64,000 nt of DNA from NCBI GenBank assembly GCA_030148915.1, contig JASBSN010000009.1:1-64000 (forward strand), given 5' to 3'. Of the stretch, positions 1-63,608 are shown one piece after another (position 1 is the first letter of the stretch; each line of letters begins with the position of its first letter). Origin of the DNA: Thiogranum sp. (GTDB lineage: Bacteria > Pseudomonadota > Gammaproteobacteria > DSM-19610). The position numbers and the translations under genes were made by a program. The notes beneath the pieces were generated by a model, which saw only the letters and a list, made by a program, of their open reading frames with translations, was not told where the DNA came from and did no database searches.

Positions 1-83
1 GAGGTCCAGCCGTGGAGTCTCTCGATGGCTTAGGGTGCCGTTAGCGGCACATGCACCATCGAGAGACTCCACGGCTGGACCTC
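1..83 (+). repeat. Long palindromic element, copy A (CGATGG subtype)
   Basis: Two perfectly complementary 28-nt arms (1-28 and 56-83) flank a 27-nt core (29-55). The core starts with CTTAGG, forms an inner stem GTGCCG/CGGCAC (35-40 and 45-50) around the tetranucleotide TTAG, and ends with ATGCA. The predicted fold is a 28-bp outer stem, an asymmetric internal loop (CTTAGG opposite ATGCA), a 6-bp inner stem and a 4-nt loop. The arm next to the core reads CGATGG, as in copy D. The left arm begins at base 1, so it may extend outside the window. Similar cores with different arms occur at 197-281, 45106-45190 and 45247-45329. Family unknown to me. Confidence 0.9.
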
Positions 84-196: not shown

Positions 197-281
197 GCGG
201 GGTTTACCCGGTGCAAAGTTTTTGGCTTAGGGTGCCGCGAGCGGCACATGCACCAAAAACTTTGCACCGGGTAAACCCCGC
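197..281 (+). repeat. Long palindromic element, copy B (TTTTTGG subtype)
   Basis: Perfectly complementary 29-nt arms (197-225 and 253-281) enclose the 27-nt core (226-252), which again starts CTTAGG, has the inner stem GTGCCG/CGGCAC with tetranucleotide CGAG, and ends ATGCA. The core-proximal arm is GTTTTTGG, as in copy C. Arm sequence is otherwise unlike copy A, so only the core and the pairing are shared between the two subtypes. Confidence 0.92.
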
Positions 282-45041: not shown

Positions 45042-45105
45042 TGCGGGCGCGGTGTGGCCTCTGCAGAAAGTAAACTGACGCCTGTAACTACCATGCACGC
45101 TTAAA

Positions 45106-45190
45106 GCGGGTGTCAACCGGTTCCGGGTTTTTGGTGCATGCGCCGCCTGCGGTGCCCTAAGCCAAAAACCCGGATCCGGTTGACACCCGC
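45106..45190 (-). repeat. Long palindromic element, copy C (TTTTTGG subtype, inverted)
   Basis: 29-nt arms (45106-45134, 45162-45190) complementary except for one mismatch (arm position 16) flank a 27-nt core in reverse orientation (45135-45161). On the minus strand the core starts CTTAGG and ends ATGCA. The inner stem differs from the others: one base pair is swapped (T-A to C-G) and one is an A-C mismatch on the minus strand, a G-T wobble on the plus strand. Arms share 21 of 29 positions with copy B. Confidence 0.9.
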
Positions 45191-45246
45191 CTGCGCCGAG
45201 GCTGAGACCTAGTAACAGCCCTGATACTTCCGCTGGCTTCAAGTCC

Positions 45247-45329
45247 GAGCTTCAGCCGGGCGGCCCTTCGATGGCTTAGGGTGCCGCCAGCGGCACATGC
45301 ACCATCGAAGGGCCGCCCGGCTGAAGCTC
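45247..45329 (+). repeat. Long palindromic element, copy D (CGATGG subtype)
   Basis: Perfect 28-nt arms (45247-45274, 45302-45329) with the standard core (45275-45301; inner loop CCAG). Arms match copy A at 20 of 28 positions, and each of the eight differences is matched by the complementary change in the other arm. Confidence 0.92.
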
Positions 45330-63554: not shown

Positions 63555-63608
63555 AATACTTGCATTATGCAATCAGTTGAACTACTATAATTCCATTATG
63601 CAAGTATT
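63555..63608. promoter_or_regulatory. Divergent promoter with dyad operator
   Basis: AATACTTGCAT (63555-63565) and ATGCAAGTATT (63598-63608) form an 11-bp inverted repeat; TTGCATTATGCAA at 63560-63572 is itself palindromic. A TATAAT at 63586-63591 lies between them for the rightward gene. Probably bound by the HxlR regulator. Confidence 0.7.

Follow-up and report, generated by a model that had tools for sequence, protein, structure and literature searches.

The window, the whole 64,000-nucleotide stretch analysed here, lies on contig C25 in a gammaproteobacterial genome of 3.2 Mb (G000), and its four long hairpins, A to D, belong to a family of dispersed intergenic hairpins whose arms vary from copy to copy and are still paired. 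We lean toward reading them as REP/REPIN-like elements in which template switching homogenises the arms of a hairpin that is itself under constraint, an explanation to which we give somewhat better than even credence. The preliminary description had offered selection on base pairing or the rewriting of one arm from the other. Rewriting is favoured by two-sided transversions, mirrored indels and inverted cores, while the retention of an orthologous hairpin and the conservation of the core point to constraint as well, and probably both act.

A pattern search found 59 core copies in G000, and the number rises to about 66 hairpins, all between genes, once variants are included; copies were gathered with pattern and covariance-model searches, so that some decayed ones may be missed. 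The unit is about 85 bases long (79-85 nt), with arms of 26-29 bp around a structured core of 21-27 nt. The core is conserved, whereas the arms and flanks vary among copies. It reads TGCAT-GYGC…GCRC-CCTAAG: TGCAT and CCTAAG face each other in an asymmetric internal loop, and the inner stem GYGC…GCRC caps this loop. Two arm types occur, T2 (CCAAAAACC…CCCGC, 28-29 nt) and T1 (CCATCGAGG…CCTC, 26-28 nt). Adjacent hairpins are one T1 and one T2, the distance between their cores being about 130-160 bp in most cases, with the single exception of a double-T2 array at C17:338-635 whose second T2 is partly decayed. The inner-flank consensus in the better kept copies is CTGCACCGAAGCC after T2 and ACTTCCGGTGGCTTCGGTCCGAGG before T1. 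The proposal of two lineages thus holds for the arm types and not for the family, as T1 and T2 have one core in common and are partners in one composite. They also have the inner-flank sequence ACCGAAGCC in common, and homology between their arms is weak by alignment (168 of 2000 shuffles were equally good).

All four window hairpins have a 27-nt core, and their folding z-scores lie between -9 and -16 (Table 1). The core of copy A is inverted relative to the usual composite order. Read directly, the arms are identical between A and D at 20 of 28 positions and between B and C at 21 of 29; in each comparison eight differences are mirrored in the opposite arm, as first described. Copy C has one mismatch within itself, a T.T at arm position 14 counted from the core. 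In an Rfam search of the window only tRNAs scored above the gathering threshold. The hairpins matched microRNA models below threshold, as any long hairpin would, and an Rfam or microRNA identity was rejected. A search of the window for CGTC-type REPs found none.

Table 1. Positions of the hairpins and composite in the window, and loci of the related subfamily in the congener G011
Feature	Position or loci	Strand	Details
Copy A, T1 hairpin	1-83	-	28-bp perfect arms, core 29-55, contig start
Copy B, T2 hairpin	197-281	-	29-bp perfect arms, core 226-252; composite partner of A
Copy C, T2 hairpin	45106-45190	+	29-bp arms 45106-45134 / 45162-45190, core 45135-45161 (+)
C-D spacer	45191-45246	.	degenerate inner flanks
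Copy D, T1 hairpin	45247-45329	-	28-bp perfect arms 45247-45274 / 45302-45329, core 45275-45301 (-)
Composite C+D	45103-45329	+	T2 then T1, cores face each other; gatB-hslO intergenic gap
G011 subfamily	L266, L271, L275, L283, L285, L287, L289, L330-L334

Across the genome the pairing of the arms is far above chance, as the preliminary description had claimed from four copies. Within the 30 T2 copies the arms are paired at 96.7% over 28 positions, against 69.5% (maximum 73.6%) in 500 arm swaps; within the 22 T1 copies the value is 96.5% over 27 positions, against 68.0% (maximum 73.4%), again in 500 swaps. An alignment of 32 sequences has standard pairs in 98.1% of cells, compared with 66.6% after shuffling and 36-45% with slid partners, and 306 of its cells have changed on both sides, compared with 85 when shuffled. 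Far from many copies having freely mismatched arms, only about 3 of 66 look decayed (C7:16508, C17:635 and C135:199), and this is so while flanks and spacers have strongly diverged between copies.

The kind of change bears on how pairing is kept. In 19 disjoint nearest-copy contrasts, two-sided Watson-Crick changes outnumber one-sided ones by 70 to 14. The two-sided changes comprise 33 transitions and 37 transversions, which does not differ from the 198:180 seen in coding DNA (p=0.44), taken here as a fair neutral yardstick. A stepwise route through G.U should favour transitions, so a share of one half for transversions argues against it. Among arm pairs G.U is scarce, at about 1.5%. In at least three hairpins a one-base indel in one arm has its mirror image in the other (C14:9598, C17:56893/C97:22721 and L371 of G011). 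Cores are inverted between unchanged flanks in three T2 copies (C14:9598, C58:29730, C75:36408) and two T1 copies (C51:79026, C97:22587), with a sixth, probable case at C25:29. At C51:93650 the arms are perfectly matched over 39 bp. Taken together, the transversion share, mirrored indels, core inversions and stem extension favour copying from arm to arm. Residual mismatches on the core strand are more often G.T than A.C, both in the arms (25:8) and in the inner stem (15:4). This excess suggests that the hairpin functions as RNA or as a single strand, or that mutation is biased by transcription. Mismatches of other kinds account for 36 of the 69 in the arms, the share expected from mutation alone.

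Related hairpins occur in 6 of 16 congeneric species. The covariance model finds the family in G000, G001, G004 and G014, and more distant members are present in G005, G008 and G011. No member was found in 274 sampled genomes of the class outside the genus, under stricter filters by which weak members could be missed, nor did an exact-core scan of named species genomes, a collection that may omit near relatives, give a match. Plasmids, phages and viral contigs gave none either, and a phage, plasmid or viral origin was rejected on these grounds. The G011 subfamily comprises some ten hairpins, almost all of them with perfect arms, which measure 28-32 bp; they are of the form TTTTTGCGCC…GGCGCAAAAA around a related core, and exhibit mirrored substitutions and one mirrored indel.

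Evidence for coupling in place comes from one orthologous hairpin, a T2 copy between gltD and hemE that is common to G004 and G014 and absent from the other congeners examined. The two versions differ by four substitutions per arm, two of them transversions, and all four are mirrored. The upstream flanks are 56% identical (shuffled 46 ± 6%) and the downstream flanks 42% (shuffled 43%), and hemE differs by 11%. The mirrored changes within such diverged flanks indicate that pairing was maintained after insertion and that the hairpin outlasts its surroundings, although part of its retention may be owed to a recent re-insertion at this site. Downstream of alkA, G000 and G001 both carry hairpins with very different arms, each paired, and these may be related by common descent or come from separate insertions. 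The gatB-hslO gap, which holds composite C+D in G000, is short and element-free in congeners, with boundaries blurred where intergenic flanks do not align, and the composite was therefore probably gained in the G000 lineage.

The hairpins lie in 27 convergent, 18 tandem and 3 divergent gaps, and thus divergent promoters are avoided. T2 is sense to the gene before it 29 times out of 33 (29:4). Where two genes converge, one is faced by T2 and its neighbour by T1. Genes were called for these counts from open frames and codon GC, and paired copies are non-independent. The placement would suit a 3'-end RNA element, a role that has been proposed for REPs, and any such function of our elements is putative. 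An intrinsic terminator was rejected by inspection, as the stem has no following U-run and the T-stem-A order in G011 is the opposite of that of a terminator. The near-fixed arm length, the conserved core and retention while flanks diverge argue for constraint on the hairpin.

In the explanation that we favour, the family would be a genus-restricted set of dispersed intergenic hairpins, with T2, T1 and a short spacer as the full composite, mostly at gene 3' ends. Replication would repeatedly switch template from one arm to the other, a process known as quasipalindrome correction. One such event would suffice to erase a mutation from an arm or to copy it to the opposite arm, and events of this kind would sometimes invert the core as well. 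Constraint would probably come from a role as a 3'-end RNA element or a protein target. Homogenised arms, indels included, without transition bias, and spacer inversion between intact arms (5 clear flips and 1 probable) were both found, as template switching predicts. These comparisons have one genome per species, and the proposed switching events are deduced from their collective traces. Against this explanation stands the bias of G.T over A.C on the core strand, where plain, strand-blind arm copying predicts none. The same bias speaks for a rival in which selection alone would be at work, with the hairpin acting as RNA and the arms changing by ordinary two-step compensatory substitutions. 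The hairpin could then serve as a 3'-UTR stabiliser, a factor-dependent terminator or a protein-binding site with the internal loop UGCAU/CCUAAG. The sense orientation of T2, the avoidance of divergent promoters, the conserved core and the shared gltD-hemE hairpin that outlasts its flanks are also consistent with it. However, transversions are as frequent among two-sided changes as in coding DNA, the mutation-like share of arm mismatches other than G.T and A.C indicates that these are not purged, G.U pairs are scarce, and mirrored indels and core flips need separate steps that copying does not. We therefore consider selection alone unlikely, at roughly one chance in four.

Pairing could also have been set only at mobilisation, the elements being REPIN-like and non-autonomous and their matched arms reflecting active master copies and not maintenance in place. 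The many copies in one species, the empty orthologous site and the composite layout would suit this, and G000 does have a RAYT-like gene, a 246-aa Y1 transposase-like protein at L064 (G000:C100:9269-9595) that matches REP_Tyr_transpos weakly (67.1 bits, cut-off 80). Yet no family hairpin lies in the 3.3-kb locus around it (within 1.5 kb), and this RAYT/Y1 transposase is at most a candidate partner. An autonomous transposon with hairpin ends was rejected, there being no close gene-enclosing pair in the copy list. The orthologous hairpin in G004 and G014 is still paired after four changes in each arm since divergence, and copies with strongly diverged flanks and spacers are nonetheless paired, which makes coupling at mobilisation only a rather improbable account. 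Finally, fold-back assembly might have made or perfected the inverted repeats: several contigs end in or near a hairpin, and C37 (119-nt arms) and C26 start with long perfect fold-backs. Most copies, however, lie mid-contig between distinct unique flanks, their arms vary from copy to copy, and the same architecture recurs in separately assembled congeners, and we regard an assembly origin of the family as highly implausible.

Among known systems, REPINs (PMC3116915), which are REP doublets that fold into hairpins, are likewise scattered outside genes and consist of two small palindromic units in inverted orientation around a variable middle. A REPIN conserves its two outer REPs around a variable spacer, whereas here it is the central core that is conserved, one unit by itself forms a hairpin of 83-85 nt, and a linked RAYT was not found. 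The GTAG and CGTC super-families of REPs (PMC3733652) are also intergenic palindromes, form heterodimers with 20-100 bp spacers, prefer tandem and convergent gaps and have G.T pairs in their stems. Our elements agree with REPs in placement, being tandem or convergent and arranged as T1/T2 pairs where REPs often form inverted dimers, but not in size: REP stems measure 5-13 bp (GTAG) or 8-9 bp (CGTC), with loops of at most 20 bp in units of 20-40 bp, compared with 26-29 bp stems, structured 21-27-nt cores and 79-85-nt units. No unpaired GTAG or CGTC tag is present at any arm foot, all of which were inspected (T2, AAAG/CGGG…CCCGC/CTGCACC; T1, CAGAG/G…CCTC/GGACC). Compared by description only, the MITE-like enterobacterial repeats RU-1, RU-2 and RU-3 (PMC2759123) are also small, mobile and intergenic (103-168 bp), and their published summary mentions no composite of two hairpins around a common core. 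Arm homogenisation, spacer inversion and stem insertion and extension through fold-back copying are published signatures of template switching in quasipalindromes (PMC8794818, PMC8604942). Template switching is a mutational mechanism rather than a kind of element, and those descriptions concern rRNA, microRNA and yeast genes, whereas we propose it for a single bacterial repeat present in dozens of copies. In REP dimers and REPINs, compensatory changes of the stem were already on record. The elements are best called a new variant within the REP-like repertoire, evolving by a known mutational mechanism on an unusual scale.

Template switching has been proposed to explain how long perfect stems survive mutation, chiefly on the basis of work on rRNA, microRNA and yeast. 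A bacterial family that is dispersed in dozens of long-armed copies and includes an orthologous pair offers a natural test of stepwise compensation against arm copying. Covariation, usually taken as proof of selected RNA structure, can come from a mutational process, and the family widens the REP-like repertoire toward much longer stems around a conserved core. More tentatively, and with a little less than even confidence, we suggest that these long 3'-end hairpins form a class not described before, in which stems stay perfect mainly through template switching and less through selection on each pair, the mutational process serving at dozens of loci as copy-editor for a functional structure.

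Several related or neighbouring sequences were also seen. Six non-hairpin chimeras run from a T2 arm through the core to a T1 arm, two in G000 (L022, C7:3516; L122, C118:10400) and four in G001 (L068, L074, L076, L078). Most have a shorter core, TGCATGCGCTCGCGCCCTAAG, and composite outer flanks on both sides; from their sequence they look as if composites had been deleted between the two cores, or alternatively they may be an older form. L117 (G000:C51:87711) has a short core, a T1 right arm and, on its left, a CGTC-type REP-like palindrome, ATTCCGGCCTGCGCCGGAATGACGG, as if two repeats had fused. Single distant members at L267 (G005:C244) and L268 (G008:C1:2045836) have the core GCGCC…CGAAG, which suggests further subfamilies within the genus. 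The fold-backs around a hairpin at two contig starts, C37:1-265 (L007, 119 nt) and C26:1-163 (L116, >45 nt), are likely assembly artefacts; C37 and C25 (1-83) begin with the same hairpin and so are probably neighbours. In G008, G010 and G015 the gap downstream of gatB (L221, L222, L226) carries short CGTCAT(G/T)CCGGC…GCCGG palindromes that look like CGTC-type REPs. The window itself has an unrelated short inverted repeat at 63555-63608, with 19-nt arms, a 16-nt loop and AT-rich TGCATTATGCA-like sequence.
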